59,295 nucleotides of DNA from an uncultured cyanobacterium (GTDB taxonomy: Bacteria; Cyanobacteriota; Cyanobacteriia; PCC-6307; Cyanobiaceae), in the NCBI GenBank assembly GCA_903823115.1, contig CAIJRN010000083.1, forward strand, positions 1 through 59,295, in the 5' to 3' direction. The position numbers and the translations under genes were made by a program. This document shows, one piece after another, positions 44,168 to 59,069 of this stretch (position 1 is its first letter; every line of letters begins with the position of its first letter). A model generated the notes under the pieces. It made no database searches, was not told the origin of the DNA, and saw only the letters and a list, made by a program, of their open reading frames with translations.

Positions 44168-46135
44168 TCAGAGCGAGCGCTGCATCAGGCGGCCCATCAG
44201 ATCGCTGCTGCGCTGCTGGAAGCCGGCCAGCTGGTTGGGCTCCAGGCCGCCGACGGCGAGGCGGGCCGTCTCGTAGAGATGGCGCCCCAGCTCGAGCGCC
44301 AGGGTGTGGCTGGGGGAGTCGGCCGAACCGGTGGTGAGCACGGCGCCGCTGGAGAGCTTGAGCAGGCCCTCCACCAGCGGATGGCGGCGGTTGACCAGCA
44401 GCACGTGGTGATCCGGCAGGCCCGGCAGCCGCTGATCCATCAGGGCGCCCATGTCGTTGATGCGGCGCATCTGTTCGGGCAGCAGGATCAGGGCGGCCGG
44501 CGCCTGATCGCCCTTGAGCGACTGCACCTGGATCGTCACCTTGTCGTTGGCGAGAGCCTGGCGGAAGAGGTCGCGCAGCTTTTCGCCGGCGTCCTTGCCC
44601 TCGCTGTCGGCCAGTTCGCTCTCCTGCTCCTTGAGACTGTCGTCGAGTTCGGCATCGACCCGCTGGAAGGTGAGATCGCCGTGGCGCATCTCCAGCCAGG
44701 GAATGAACTGGGAATCAATCAGGGTGTCGGCCAGCAGCACCTCCGCTCCCTGACCTTTCCACAGGGCCAGGGCTCCAGCCTGGCCGGCTTCATCGGTGCA
44801 ATAGAGGATGCGCTTGTTGCTGTCCTCGCTGAGCCGCTGGCGATAGCCCGCCAGGGTGGTGAAGCAGCGTTCGCCGACCTGGATCGGATCTCGCTTGGTC
44901 GTGGCTTCAGTGATCGCGGCTTCATCGACCACGGCTTCTGCGACCGCTGCTTCAGCGGGGCTGGCCGTGGTGGCGAACAGCACCAGATCGGCCACCTGTT
45001 CGGCGAACTTCTCGTCCTCCATGGCGCCGATCTTGATGAAGGGGGAGAGGGATTCCCAGATCTCCGCATAGCGGTCGGGATCATCGCGATGCAGTTCCTT
45101 GAGGCGATCGCCCACCTTCTTGGCGACAAAGCCGCCGATCGAGCGCACGCGGCGATCGGTCTGCAGGGCGCTGCGGCTGACGTTGAGGGGGATGTCGGGC
45201 GAGTCGATCACGCCACGCAGGGGCAGCAGGTAGCGGGGCACCACCTCCTTGATTGAATCGCTGACGAACACCTGATTGCAATAGAGACGGATCTCACCCT
45301 TCTCCCAGTCAGCGCGGCCGGTGATCTTGGGGAAGAACAGAATCCCCTGCAGGTTGTAGGGATAATCCGTGCTCAGGTGCACCCACAGGAGCGGGTCGCC
45401 CTGGAAGGGATAGAGATAGCGATAGAGCTCGATGTAGTCGTTATCGGTGAGATCGCGGGGCGAGGAGCGCCAGGGGGCCTGGCGCTTGTTGACCGTTTCG
45501 CCTTCGAGCTGCACTTCCACCGGCAGGAAGTCGCAGTAGGTGGTGATCAAGGTGCGGATGCGGCTGGGCTCGATGTATTCGAGCTCCTCCTCCATCAGAT
45601 GCAGGATCACATCGGTGCCGGGTTCGCTGCGCTCGGCGCCCTCGAGGCTGAAGTTGGGGGAGCCATCACAGCTCCAGCGCACGGCTTCGCTGTCGGGGCG
45701 AGCCGAAAGGCTCACCAGCTCCACCTGCTTGGCCACCATGAAGCTGGAATAAAATCCCAGGCCGAAGTGGCCGATGATGGCATCGCTTTCCTGCTTGTAT
45801 TTCTCCAGGAAGTCCTCGGCGCTGGAGAAGGCCACCTGGTTGATGTAGCGCTTCACCTCATCGGCGTTCATGCCGATGCCGTTGTCGGAAATGGTGAGCG
45901 TGTTGGCCTCGCGATTGATGCTGATCGAGATCCGGGCTTCCGGACCCTCACTGCAATCTCCGCCCATGGCGGCCATGCGGCGCTTGCTGATCGCGTCAAC
46001 ACCGTTGCTCACCAATTCCCGCAGGAACACTTCATGGCCGCTGTAAACGGCCTTCTTGATGATCGGGAAGATGTTCTCGGTATGGATCTGAATCTGACCC
46101 TGTTCGTCCAGTACCGGCATGGCAGCGTGTGTCAC
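44168..46135 (-). CDS. htpG: Molecular chaperone HtpG (Hsp90)
   Basis: ATP-dependent Hsp90 chaperone; in cyanobacteria it supports stress tolerance and phycobilisome assembly. The 655-aa product shows FLRELVSNGVDAISKRR, the ATP-binding LTISDNGIGMNADEV, and the middle-domain FFPKITGRADWEKGEIRLY region. An Ala/Glu/Thr-rich insertion (about residues 392-411, encoded at 44901-44960) is built of four 15-bp imperfect repeats, unlike usual HtpG. It is downstream of a ferredoxin gene by about 110 bp on the same strand. Confidence 0.96.
   Translation of the reverse strand: MTHAAMPVLDEQGQIQIHTENIFPIIKKAVYSGHEVFLRELVSNGVDAISKRRMAAMGGDCSEGPEARISISINREANTLTISDNGIGMNADEVKRYINQVAFSSAEDFLEKYKQESDAIIGHFGLGFYSSFMVAKQVELVSLSARPDSEAVRWSCDGSPNFSLEGAERSEPGTDVILHLMEEELEYIEPSRIRTLITTYCDFLPVEVQLEGETVNKRQAPWRSSPRDLTDNDYIELYRYLYPFQGDPLLWVHLSTDYPYNLQGILFFPKITGRADWEKGEIRLYCNQVFVSDSIKEVVPRYLLPLRGVIDSPDIPLNVSRSALQTDRRVRSIGGFVAKKVGDRLKELHRDDPDRYAEIWESLSPFIKIGAMEDEKFAEQVADLVLFATTASPAEAAVAEAVVDEAAITEATTKRDPIQVGERCFTTLAGYRQRLSEDSNKRILYCTDEAGQAGALALWKGQGAEVLLADTLIDSQFIPWLEMRHGDLTFQRVDAELDDSLKEQESELADSEGKDAGEKLRDLFRQALANDKVTIQVQSLKGDQAPAALILLPEQMRRINDMGALMDQRLPGLPDHHVLLVNRRHPLVEGLLKLSSGAVLTTGSADSPSHTLALELGRHLYETARLAVGGLEPNQLAGFQQRSSDLMGRLMQRSL
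44901..44960. repeat. Four imperfect 15-bp repeats inside htpG
   Basis: Units at 44901-44915, 44916-44930, 44931-44945 and 44946-44960 share a core of GGCTTCA or a close variant. They encode a pentapeptide series on the minus strand (DEAAI, AEAVV, AEAAV type). The number of units may vary between strains. Confidence 0.75.
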
Positions 46136-52363: not shown

Positions 52364-54943
52364 ATGGGGCGGATCGTTGGCATCGACCTGGGCACCACCA
52401 ACTCGGTGGTGGCCGTGCTCGAAGGCGGCAGGCCTCAGGTCATTGCCAATGCCGAGGGAGGGCGCACCACCCCATCGGTGGTGGGATTCAGTCGTGAGCG
52501 GGAGTTGCTGGTGGGCCAGCTGGCGCGGCGCCAGCTGGTGCTCAACCCCCGCAACACCTTTGCCAACCTCAAGCGCTTCGTCGGCCGCCGCTGGGACGAG
52601 CTCGACGAGAGCAGCCTGGGGGTGCCGTACACGGTGCGGGCCAATGACCAGGGCAATGTGCGTGTCGTCTGCCCCGTCACCGAGCGCGAATATGCGCCGG
52701 AGGAGCTCGTGGCCAGCATCCTGCGCAAGCTCGTCGATGACGCCGCCACCTACCTCGGCGAAGCGGTGGAGGCGGCGGTGGTCACCGTTCCGGCCTATTT
52801 CGATGATGCCCAGCGCCAGGCCACCCGCGATGCCGGCCGGCTGGCGGGCATCACGGTGGAGCGCATCCTCAATGAACCGACGGCGGCGGCCCTGGCCTAC
52901 GGCTTCGATCGCAGTGCGGTCAAGCAGGTGCTGGTCTTTGATCTCGGCGGTGGCACCTTCGATGTCTCGGTGCTGCGCATCGCCAACGGCGTCTTTGATG
53001 TCAAGGCCACCAGCGGCGACACCCAGCTGGGCGGCAATGACTGGGATCGGCGCATCGTCGACTGGCTGGCCGATGCCTTCCTGACCGAGCACGGCCTCGA
53101 TCTGCGCCGCGATCGCCAGGCGCTGCAGCGTCTCAGCGAAGCGGCCGAGAAGGCCAAGATCGAACTCTCCGGCGTGCAGAGCACGCCGATCTCCCTGCCC
53201 TTCATCGCCACGGGGCCCGAGGGGCCCCTGCATGTCGAAACCAGCCTGGAGCGCCGCAGCTTCGAGGCTCTCTGCCCGGATCTGCTCGATCGGCTGCTGC
53301 GGCCGGTGCAGCGCGCCCTGCGTGATTCCGGCCTTTCGGCCGACGACATCGACGATGTGGTGCTGGTGGGGGGCTCCACCCGCATGCCGATGGTGCAGGA
53401 GATGGTGCGCACCTTGATCCCGCGCGAACCGTGTCAGTCGGTCAATCCCGATGAGGTGGTGGCGATCGGCGCGGCGGTGCAGGCCGGCATCCTCACCGGC
53501 GAACTGCGGGATCTGATGCTCAATGACGTCACGCCGCTGTCCCTGGGGCTGGAGACGATCGGCGGGCTGATGAAGGTGCTGATTCCGCGCAACACCTCGA
53601 TTCCGGTGCGCAAGTCCGATCTGTTCAGCACCTCGGAGGCCAATCAGAACTCGGTCGAGATTCACGTGCTCCAGGGTGAGCGCCAGATGGGCGCTGACAA
53701 CAAGTCGCTGGGGCGGTTCCGGCTCTCCGGCATCCCGCCGGCCCCGCGCGGCGTGCCCCAGGTGCAGGTGTCCTTCGACATCGACGCCAATGGCCTGCTG
53801 CAGGTGTCGGCCACCGATCGCACCACCGGGCGCCAGCAGAGTGTGACGATCCAGGGCGGCTCCAATCTCAGCGAGCAGGAGATTGCGGCCCTGCTGGCCG
53901 AAGCCGAGCTCAAAGCGGTGGAGGATCGCCGCAAGCGGGCGGAGATCGATCGCCGCAACAAGGCCCAGACCCTGGTGGCCCAGGCCGAACGCCGTCTGCG
54001 CGATGCGGCCCTCGAGCTCGGCCCCTATGGCGCTGAACGCCAGCAGCGCTCGGTGGAGATGGCGGTGCGTGACGTGCAGGATCTGCTGGTGGCCGAGGAT
54101 TCCAGCGAGCTGGAGCTGGCCGTCAGTCAGTTGCAGGAGGCGCTGTTCGGTCTGAACCGGCGCCTGATGAGTGAGCGGCGTGCCGAGACCGGTCCGCTGC
54201 AGGGCCTCAAGAACACGCTCGGCTCGCTCAAGGACGAACTGTTCGCCGATGACGACTGGGATGACTGGGATCGCGGCGGCCGTGGTGATCCCTGGGCCTC
54301 GTCGTCCCGTGCCGGCGCCTACGGCGCTGGCGCCTATGGCGCAGGCGGTGGTGCTGGCCGTAGCCCGAGCGGCAGTTTCGGCCTCGGTAGCTTCGGCTCC
54401 GGCACTGCCGGAACCGGCAGTTTCCGCTCTTTTGACGACGAACCCAGGGGCTCTGGTCAGCGCAGCGAGGCCGATCGGTTCGGGGATCGGGGTGCTGGCT
54501 CCGCGGGCAATCCAGCCCGATGGGATCGCGGCGACCAGGATCGATGGCAACGCCAGCCTGCCGAGGCTGAGCGTCCCGGTTCTGAGCGTCCCGGTGCTGA
54601 GAGCCGTTGGCGCGACAGTGGGGCCAGCGGCCGGGATTGGGATCAGGACGGCCGCGTGGATCGGGACTACGGCGACGGCCGCGACAACGGCGACGGCCGC
54701 GATCCAGGCAACGCGCGAACCGCCGGCAACCGGCAGCTGCGCGACCCCGGCGGTGACTGGGACCGCGGCCGTGACCGGGATCCTGGTGGTGACGGGGGGC
54801 GAGGCCGTGAGCGGGACCCTGGTGAGGACTGGGGCCGGGGCGATCCCCGCAGCTCCGGCGGCAGTGCCGCCGGCAGTGCCGGTGGCAGCGCCACCCGCCG
54901 GCGCGATCAGGGTCTGCAGGATGATCCCTGGTCCGACGGCTGA
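52364..54943 (+). CDS. dnaK3: DnaK3-type Hsp70 with exceptionally long disordered C-terminal tail
   Basis: Hsp70 chaperone, 859 aa. The ATPase domain starts [17 protein letters not shown] and has [15 protein letters not shown] and [15 protein letters not shown]; the peptide-binding domain runs to about residue 500 and the lid to about 625. After [17 protein letters not shown] the remaining roughly 235 residues are Gly/Arg/Asp/Ser-rich, built from short tandem duplications (GAYGA, ERPG, DGRDNG and [11 protein letters not shown]-like units). Cyanobacterial DnaK3 has a C-terminal extension used for thylakoid association; in Synechocystis dnaK3 is likewise next to dnaJ. This tail is longer than the roughly 770-aa total of that protein allows. 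The gene is 5 bp before dnaJ3. Confidence 0.93.
54314..54343. repeat. 15-bp tandem repeat in the dnaK3 tail (first)
   Basis: GGCGCCTACGGCGCT (54314-54328) is followed by GGCGCCTATGGCGCA (54329-54343), encoding GAYGA twice. Confidence 0.8.
54567..54596. repeat. 15-bp tandem repeat in the dnaK3 tail (second)
   Basis: CTGAGCGTCCCGGTT (54567-54581) is followed by CTGAGCGTCCCGGTG (54582-54596), encoding an ERPG-type repeat. Confidence 0.8.
54671..54706. repeat. 18-bp tandem repeat in the dnaK3 tail
   Basis: Units at 54671-54688 and 54689-54706 share GGCGACGGCCGCGA and encode DGRDNG then DGRDPG. Confidence 0.75.
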
Positions 54944-56040: not shown

Positions 56041-56508
56041 GTGACCCCGAGAGAGTCCGCCTTCGGGCCGGTGCATGTGCTCCTGTTCGATGCCCACAGT
56101 GATCAGGAGGGCATTCATTCCCTGGAGCTGAACGGCCGCACCGTGGTGCTGATGTTTGAGGACCCCGATGACGCCGAGCGCTATGCGGGCCTGCTGGAAG
56201 CGCAGGATTTCCCGGTGCCGACGGTGGAGCTGATCGACCGCGAGGAGCTGGAGCAGTTCTGCCGGGATGCGGGCTACGAGGGGCGCTTCGTGCCGGCGGG
56301 CTTCCTGCCGAGCAGCGACGAGGAGCGGCTGCTGATTGCCCCGCCCGAGCGCAACATGGATGTCAGCAGCTGGAAGGAGCAGGCCGAAGCCGGCGATCTG
56401 GAGCCTGATGCCGCTGGCGGCGACCGGTCTGCTGGCGGCGACAGTGCCGCTGCCAGCCCCGATCCTGAGCTGGAAGCCTTCCGCCGCCGGCTGGAGGGGC
56501 TGCTGTGA
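56041..56508 (+). CDS. DUF3110 family protein (cyanobacterial)
   Basis: A 155-aa soluble protein with the DUF3110 pattern VHVLLFDAHSDQEGIHSLEL and VLMFEDPDDAERYAGLLEAQDFP. The function is unknown. It starts at GTG 56041, 30 bp after dnaJ3, and overlaps murQ by 4 bp (GTGA). The C-terminal part (about 110-155) is acidic and probably disordered. Its position in the dnaK3-dnaJ3 run suggests co-expression with that chaperone pair. Confidence 0.85.
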   Translation: MTPRESAFGPVHVLLFDAHSDQEGIHSLELNGRTVVLMFEDPDDAERYAGLLEAQDFPVPTVELIDREELEQFCRDAGYEGRFVPAGFLPSSDEERLLIAPPERNMDVSSWKEQAEAGDLEPDAAGGDRSAGGDSAAASPDPELEAFRRRLEGLL

Positions 56509-57551
56509 CGGGCGCCGCTGCGGCCGATGCTCCCCTCGCCAGCCTCACCGGCGCTGAACTCTGGAGCCGGGGCCATCTGCTCACCGAGCAGGCCAATGTC
56601 CTGAGCGAAAACCTCGACCAGCTGGAGACAGCGGATCTGGTGGAGCTGTTCTGCCAGAACGATCGCCGCCCCCAGGAGGCGGTGGCCGCCGCCGCCGGCC
56701 CCCTCGTCGAAGCGGTGGATGGCATTGCCGCCCGGCTGCTGGGCGGCGGGCGGCTGTTCTATCTGGGGGCCGGCACCTCGGGCCGGCTGGGGGTGCTGGA
56801 TGCGGCGGAATGCCCACCCACCTTCTGCTCAGCGCCGGAGCTGGTGCAGGGGGTGCTGGCCGGTGGCGCCGCCGCCCTGCTGCGCAGCTCCGAAGGCCTG
56901 GAAGATCTGTTCGAAGCCGGTGTGGCCGATCTGCAGGCGCGCGGATTCGGCGCCGGCGACTGCCTGGTGGGGATCGCCGCCGGCGGCACCACCCCCTATG
57001 TGCTGGGGGGCCTCAGCCATGCCAGGGCGATCGGGGCACTGGCGATCGCCATGGCCTGTGTGCCCAGCGAGCAGGTGGCCATGCCCTGCGACATCGACAT
57101 CCGCCTGCTCACCGGCCCCGAACTGCTCACCGGCTCGACGCGGCTCAAGGCCGGCACCGCCACCAAGATGGCGCTCAACATCCTCTCCACCGGTGTGATG
57201 GTGCGGTTGGGCAAGGTGTATGGCAACCGCATGGTCGATGTGGCGGTCACCAACGCCAAGCTCGAGGACCGGGCCCTGCGCATCCTGGCCGATCTGGCCG
57301 GACTGAGCCGGCAGCGCGGCAGTGAGCTGCTGCGGCAGGCCGAGGGCTCGGTGCGGCTGGCCCTGTTGATGGCCGCCGCCGGCATCGAACTGGAGGCCGC
57401 CCGCGCAGCGATGGCGCTGCATGGGCCGGGCCTGCGCTCGGCGCTGGCGGCCCTGGGGGCTCAGTTGCCGGCTGGGTCGCTGACGCTTGCGTCCCTGGCG
57501 CCTGCGTCTCTGGCGCCTGCGTCTCTGACGCCTGAGTCACCAGCTTCGTAG
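56505..57551 (+). CDS. murQ: N-acetylmuramic acid 6-phosphate etherase
   Basis: MurQ cleaves the lactyl ether of MurNAc-6-P during peptidoglycan recycling. The 348-aa protein has the SIS-domain signature GAGTSGRLGVLDAAECPPTF and GGAAALLRSSEGLEDLFEAG, typical of MurQ. The last roughly 25 residues ([16 protein letters not shown] type) are a tail made of four 15-bp repeats that overlap mtnP on the other strand. It starts at GTG overlapping the DUF3110 stop. Confidence 0.94.
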   Translation: MTGAAAADAPLASLTGAELWSRGHLLTEQANVLSENLDQLETADLVELFCQNDRRPQEAVAAAAGPLVEAVDGIAARLLGGGRLFYLGAGTSGRLGVLDAAECPPTFCSAPELVQGVLAGGAAALLRSSEGLEDLFEAGVADLQARGFGAGDCLVGIAAGGTTPYVLGGLSHARAIGALAIAMACVPSEQVAMPCDIDIRLLTGPELLTGSTRLKAGTATKMALNILSTGVMVRLGKVYGNRMVDVAVTNAKLEDRALRILADLAGLSRQRGSELLRQAEGSVRLALLMAAAGIELEAARAAMALHGPGLRSALAALGAQLPAGSLTLASLAPASLAPASLTPESPAS

Positions 57552-58465
57552 GGGCCCCAGTAGGGAGCTGTGAACAGGTCGGTGCGCCGGCGGGTGGCGG
57601 CGGGTACGGCCTCGACCGGCGTCATCAGGGCGTGGCGCAGGGCGTGGTGGGCGCTGCTGGGGGGGCGCAGGGCCGCCACCCGCTCGGCCGCCAGGCGCAC
57701 GATCTGCTGGGCCAGGCTGGCGTTGGCGCGCAGGTTGTCGAGCACCATCTCGACCGTGACGGAGGCGTGCTCCCGGTGCCAGCAGTCGTAGTCGGTCACC
57801 ATCGCCAGGGTGGCGTAGGCCATCTCGGCCTCGCGGGCCAGTCGCGCCTCGGTGTGGTTGGTCATGCCGATCACATCAGCGCCCCAGGAGCGATAGAGCT
57901 CGGATTCGGCGCGGGTGGAGAAGGCGGGGCCCTCCATGCAGAGATAGGTGCCGCCGCGGTGCAGGCGACGACCCTCGGGCATCAGGCTGTCGCCGACATC
58001 GGCGAGGATGCGGCTGAGCACCGAGCAATAGGGATCAGCGACGGTGACGTGGGCCACGGCCCCTTCGCCGAAGAAGCTCAACGGCCGCTGATGGGTGCGA
58101 TCGATGAATTGATCGGGCACGAGCATGTCGAGCGGCCGCACCTCCTCCTGCAGGGAACCGACGGCCGACACCGACAGGATCCAGCGCACGCCGAGCGAGC
58201 GCAGCGCCCAGAGATTGGCCCGGTAGGGCACCTCGGTGGGGGTGTAGGTGTGCTGGCGGCCATGCCGGGCCAGGAACACCACCTCGAGATCGCCGATGCG
58301 GCCGAGCCGCAGGCTGTCGGAAGGCTGGCCGTAGGGGGTGTCGAGCGTGAGTTCGCGCAGATCGCCGAGGCCTTCCATGGCATAGAGGCCACTGCCGCCC
58401 AGCACGCCGAGGCGGGCCTGCGGCAGATCCAGCTGGCTGCCGGCGGAACCGCGGGGTGCGCTCAT
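57461..58465 (-). CDS. mtnP: S-methyl-5'-thioadenosine phosphorylase
   Basis: Splits methylthioadenosine with phosphate to adenine and methylthioribose-1-P in methionine salvage. The 334-aa product has [31 protein letters not shown], the phosphorylase core [21 protein letters not shown] and [20 protein letters not shown]. Length is greater than usual (about 290-300 aa) because the last roughly 25 residues ([16 protein letters not shown]) derive from the repeated 15-bp units at 57481-57540. It overlaps murQ by 91 bp in the opposite direction. ATG at 58465 is used since upstream residues are not conserved. Confidence 0.94.
57481..57540. repeat. Four 15-bp tandem repeats in overlapping murQ and mtnP tails
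   Basis: Units at 57481-57495, 57496-57510, 57511-57525 and 57526-57540; the two middle ones are identical. Both strands are coding here, so each repeat adds five codons to MurQ and five to MtnP. Confidence 0.85.
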
Positions 58466-58628: not shown

Positions 58629-59069
58629 GTGACCAAAGCCCTGATGGACACCGAAGCCGGCAGCATCGCCATCGAACTGTTTGATGCCGATGCCCCAGGC
58701 ACCGTCGCCAACTTCGTCAAGCTGGCCAACGATGGCTTCTATGACGGCCTGGCCTTCCACCGGGTGATTGATGGCTTCATGGCCCAGGGCGGCTGCCCCA
58801 ACTCCAGGGAAGGCGCCCGCGGCCAGGCCGGCACCGGCGGTCCGGGCTACATGATTCCCTGTGAGATCAACAAGAACAAACATCAGGCCGGCAGCCTGTC
58901 GATGGCCCATGCGGGCAAGAACACCGGCGGCAGCCAGTTCTTTCTCTGCCATGGCGCCACACCCCACCTTGATGGCGTGCACACCGTGTTCGGCCACACC
59001 GGCGACCTGGATGTGGTGCTGAAACTGCACAACGGCAGCCGCATCAACAAGGTGACGATCGAGGCCTGA
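58629..59069 (+). CDS. Cyclophilin-type peptidyl-prolyl cis-trans isomerase
   Basis: A 146-aa cytosolic cyclophilin. The pattern [59 protein letters not shown] and [10 protein letters not shown] is canonical, with the catalytic Arg in FHRVI. GTG at 58629 starts the usual short N-terminus. It is divergent from mtnP and ends at a clear terminator. Confidence 0.94.

Follow-up and report, generated by a model that had tools for sequence, protein, structure and literature searches.

A tandem 15-bp repeat inside a convergent murQ–mtnP overlap lengthens both predicted protein tails in a member of the Cyanobiaceae

Annotation error is a frequent verdict on long convergent gene overlaps, and the 3′ ends of murQ and mtnP in an uncultured member of the Cyanobiaceae raise the question of whether two genuine genes run through each other here and how the DNA that they share has grown. 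We analysed the locus within a stretch of 59,295 nt, referred to here as the window, and compared it with relatives from the same genus and family. The gene murQ, encoding N-acetylmuramic acid 6-phosphate etherase, occupies 56505..57551 on the plus strand as an ORF of 348 aa that ends in TAG and scores above cut-off in the curated families NF003915 (NCBIfam; 377.5 bits, cut-off 168) and TIGR00274. On the minus strand, mtnP, encoding S-methyl-5′-thioadenosine phosphorylase (MTAP), extends over 57461..58465; its start is taken as the ATG at 58465, giving 334 aa, and the longest mechanical ORF reaches 422 aa from a TTG at 58729. Its MTAP profile TIGR01694 gives 313.8 bits (cut-off 274.85), and the longer MTAP model NF005657 gives 434.2 bits, under its own cut-off of 453. 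Both ORFs delimit the 91-bp overlap on opposite strands that the first-pass annotation had reported (57461..57551). With two curated family matches and each gene continuing past the stop of the other, we consider it a true overlap of more than 60 bp.

The overlap lies beyond the conserved parts of both proteins. The NF003915 match stops at murQ residue 316 of 348, leaving a tail of ~32 aa. For mtnP, the longest family profile (NF005657, below cut-off) ends at residue 303 of 334, leaving ~31 aa, and the TIGR01694 match already stops at residue 258. Since the family profiles end before both tails, the shared DNA codes for tails beyond the enzyme bodies, in line with the earlier remark that both tails exceed the usual enzyme lengths. 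Judged from their open frames, both tails are presumably translated.

The geometry of the two stop codons determines how this DNA can change. The mtnP stop, a TGA on the minus strand at 57463–57461 (57461..57463), lies antisense within a murQ Ala-Gln codon pair (GCTCAG) and is the sole mtnP-phase stop within the stretch examined. The murQ stop, a TAG on the plus strand at 57549..57551, lies antisense within mtnP Pro-Tyr codons, and a second in-frame TAG follows 12 bp downstream (57561..57563, plus strand), antisense to mtnP Pro-Tyr-Trp codons. The overlap length is 1 mod 3 and, by our reading of the codons, its phase is (123:213), with third codon positions facing each other. As each stop is antisense inside codons of its partner, the DNA between the stops is in frame for both genes, and an insertion in this interval therefore lengthens both proteins whenever it is stop-free and its length is divisible by three. 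Similar placements recur among 55 overlapping loci of the genus and family: mtnP Pro-Tyr codons hold the murQ stop in 25 of the 55, the Pro-Tyr-Trp codons corresponding to the second TAG site hold it in 18 of the 55, and in 30 of the 35 overlaps of phase 1 the mtnP stop falls at a murQ Gln residue.

Within this interval, Tandem Repeats Finder (TRF) places 4.5 copies of a 15-bp unit at 57472..57538 (67 bp, both strands; period 15, 84% matches, score 85), where four units had been noted before. The copies are free of stops in the two native frames, and the array includes the stop codon of neither gene. Because the unit is stop-free and its length is a multiple of three, each copy is in frame for both genes and contributes five codons to each, with predicted ASLAP repeats in murQ and GARDA repeats in mtnP, so that the proposed coding in both directions is supported by the open frames. 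The array exceeds chance expectation: in 30 dinucleotide-shuffled versions of the window the highest score was 65, and no row reached 80. The distance between fixed anchors is 140 bp in the window and 92 bp in its nearest relative on the tree, G039. The array is longer than that of this relative, its unit is a multiple of three and both native frames are open, as in-frame duplication would have it.

The dual openness of the array called for a closer look at the unit itself. One unit, present in two identical copies, has no stop in any of the six frames, but the remaining window units under test are closed in one frame or in three, and both the TRF consensus and the unit of a second genome, G033 (see below), are closed in one. 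The closed frames of the window copies and of the consensus are ones that neither gene uses. When 20,000 15-mers were drawn from the window, 58% of them would, as an array, leave all six frames open. We therefore reject a special dual-strand design of the unit; dual openness is unremarkable and is expected for 15-bp units in this G+C-rich DNA.

Tandem repeats are common in the window, which contains 17 rows scoring at least 50 (shuffle mean 0.93); in 15 of these rows the period is divisible by three. The single other row that outscores the murQ–mtnP array, and the best-scoring one in the window (36 bp, score 108), is found in the plus-strand ORF at 52364..54943, which we take from its start to be dnaK-like and which has a long Gly/Asp/Arg-rich C-terminal tail with tandem repeats at 54254–54892. 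This tail resembles those of murQ and mtnP in its low complexity and in repeat periods divisible by three; it differs in that one strand is taken as coding there (a mechanical antisense ORF exists), whereas both strands are coding here. A further 15-bp array of 3.7 copies (44903–44957) lies in the minus-strand ORF at 44168..46135, presumably htpG-like, inside the protein rather than at its end.

We compared repeat number and overlap length in relatives, as the first-pass annotation had advised. A search of the genus, covering 42 genomes, recovered mtnP from 40 and murQ from 41, and the two genes overlap convergently in 29. The overlap measures 16–50 bp in 27 of these 29; the two exceptions are G033, at 82 bp, and the window, which has the longest (91 bp). 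In G039 it is 43 bp. In nine genomes 60 bp to about 1.1 kb separate the genes, in two they lie on different contigs (G028, G029), and in two mtnP or both genes are absent (G021, G038). Overlaps were also read in G027 and G015 (L069 and L070), where mtnP is incomplete at a contig end. Five genus members (L063, L064, L065, L071, L072) have ~0.8–1.1 kb between the murQ and mtnP stops. The distance table covers the loci with anchors and omits six (L013, L028, L029, L062, L071, L072), of which L028 and L029 cover parts of two loci that were read once more, at greater length, as L072 and L071.

Outside the genus, we read 40 stretches representing 18 further genera of the family, hand-picked among the matches listed and thus not a random sample: 26 overlap by 4–34 bp, 13 abut or leave a gap and one is without mtnP in the fetched stretch. 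The named contigs nearest to the window are labelled Synechococcus, Cyanobium and Aphanothece. Shared by more than half of the genus genomes and of the hand-picked stretches, the overlap is old and conserved, yet it exceeds 60 bp in only 2 of 55 cases. The overlap predates the repeats, and the repeats are not its origin. The idea that the locus exemplifies growth of dual-strand coding DNA thus holds insofar as the repeats lengthen both predicted tails; it has to be restricted in that the overlap is older than the repeats and dual openness is common.

The second long overlap has an array of its own. In G033, the 82-bp overlap contains a different 15-bp unit, GCCCCGTAGGGGCCA, in 2.9 copies at the same place. 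The window (G000) and G033, each with a different array, account for the only overlaps above 50 bp among the 55, and a search of the 29 overlapping genus genomes for equally long overlaps without repeats, which would have spoken against the first reading of the locus, found none. A different array at the same place means that array growth happened at least twice. The murQ tail of G019 (L068) carries a 15-bp array whose unit includes GCTCAG, with mtnP-phase stops at −30, −15 and 0, and the overlap remains 22 bp. As this repeat contains the mtnP stop, only murQ was lengthened. Two mtnP-phase stops 15 bp apart occur in the murQ tail of L067 (G018), compared with three in L068.

Changes in overlap length are frequent and changes of phase are rare. 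On a tree of the conserved parts of the 29 overlapping genomes, we count at least 16 length changes and one phase change; the count leaves aside the nine genomes with a gap as well as G028, G029, G021 and G038. Across 60 bootstrap trees the number of length changes ranges from 15 to 18, and the phase change is always one. When genus and family are taken together, 35 of the 55 overlap lengths are 1 mod 3, 19 are 2 mod 3 and a single one is 0 mod 3. Parsimony places a single phase switch within the genus that separates the 2 mod 3 group, in which the mtnP stop is apparently one base off its place in the group of the window. Fifteen genus members overlap in this other phase (L014–L018, L020–L026, L030, L031, L070). 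A binomial probability of 7.7e-7 for 15 of 16 length changes presupposes indels that are blind to phase and the lowest possible count of changes, and serves as a guide only. Because the whole measured distance codes for at least one gene, the multiple-of-three pattern is no proof of dual selection. We do not claim purifying selection on both tails from it, as one coding constraint suffices.

A simpler account may lie in the frames that a shift would open. Read from the overlap midpoint, shifted frames in the mtnP direction have a median length of 159 codons and reach at least 40 codons in 49 of 58 cases, some values being lower bounds where the fetched stretch ends; in the window, the two frames run for 86 and 225 codons before a stop. 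They fall below 40 codons in 9 of the 58 cases (4 codons in L004, 13 codons in L024). Shifted frames in the murQ direction have a median of 14.5 codons and reach at least 40 codons in 25 of 58 cases. Since the latter are often short, the runaway argument holds mainly for mtnP, and the run of mtnP antisense into murQ after a frame shift may be the reason why the phase is kept.

The alternatives can be weighed against these data. Selection could have favoured the tails themselves, with the repeat supplying a flexible extension of use to at least one of the two enzymes and the partner gene simply following along. This reading would account for long tails in two genomes from different arrays and for a frame conserved over about 16 length changes, but the tail sequence is not conserved among 22 aligned murQ proteins, the arrays of the window and G033 encode different peptides, 27 of the 29 overlapping genus members make do with 16–50 bp and nine genomes have a gap instead; we regard it as unlikely. 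Structure models built on 22 sequences are consistent with an unstructured murQ tail: the last helix ends at residue 317 and residues 324–348 form coil with pLDDT below 50, within a murQ model of moderate quality (mean pLDDT 63.4), the mtnP model being too poor to use (mean pLDDT 40.8). The possibility that the overlap harbours a regulatory element strengthened by the repeats, either a bidirectional terminator or an mRNA–mRNA duplex of the 3′ ends, appears quite improbable. The 3′ ends of the two mRNAs would indeed be complementary over at least 91 nt, and in G033, whose repeat unit is nearly palindromic, folding of the full overlap on the mtnP strand is better than that of most shuffles (z −2.14, equalled by 7 of 200 shuffles; the opposite strand gives z −1.21); over 48 of the 82 overlap bases the values are z −0.74 and −1.09. 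Set against this, a scan of 57300–57800 in the window for a G+C-rich stem followed by a T run returned no terminator-like site on either strand, folding of the overlap in the window is ordinary relative to shuffles (z −0.58 and −0.61), and the sequence and length of the overlap vary widely among relatives. A terminator or RNA structure in the window is thus without support.

An assembly or gene-calling artefact, which the draft state of the genome (86 contigs) might suggest, is very hard to reconcile with the locus: the array measures only 67 bp, both genes score above the cut-off of curated families, the 3′ ends do not depend on the choice of start codon and the same embedded stops recur in relatives. 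We consider it highly probable instead that an old, short convergent overlap of two housekeeping genes has grown by tandem duplication in tolerated tails. In the lineage of the window, a 15-bp unit has multiplied between the two stops, with each copy in frame for both genes. The copies probably arose by replication slippage or unequal recombination and would have persisted since both C-terminal tails are disordered and tolerate change; indels that shift the frame would mostly have been purged, as mtnP would otherwise run far into murQ antisense. No special function of the tails or of the repeat is needed.

Long convergent overlaps in prokaryotes are the subject of Palleja et al. 2008 (PMC2478687). 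Its authors examined 178 convergent overlaps of more than 60 bp, calling 124 misannotations and 54 possibly real, and report that most of those judged possibly real are conserved only in very close species (PMC2478687). The routes named there are loss of a stop codon and frame shifts, and its main text nowhere uses the word ‘repeat’. The overlap described here resembles the cases presented in that text in being convergent, longer than 60 bp and formed by 3′ extension, whereas a short form of it occurs in many genera of the family and its extra length stems from internal tandem duplication. Phase statistics across 58 species (Biol Direct 2007, PMC2174442) describe (123:213) and (123:321) as increasingly common in longer convergent overlaps; the phase that we read in the window is one of these two, whereas growth by repeats falls outside the treatment of phases given in that paper. 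In the open-access literature, we found no title or abstract on a murQ–mtnP overlap or on repeats that lengthen two antisense proteins.

A broader reading, which we advance tentatively and regard as rather doubtful at present, is that mutually embedded stops act as a frame lock, such that overlaps in G+C-rich genomes, with their long open antisense frames, change almost only by threes. If true, any tail residues gained or lost between the stops would be gained or lost by two unrelated proteins at once, a stop in the duplicated unit would decide between growth of one protein and of both, and the mechanism would provide a general route to long genuine convergent overlaps. The locus offers a traceable series, from a short and widespread overlap, through two genomes in which it was lengthened by different arrays, to one stop-carrying repeat that lengthened a single protein, and can thereby serve as a natural experiment, if a small one, on how dual-coding DNA lengthens and what preserves its reading phase.
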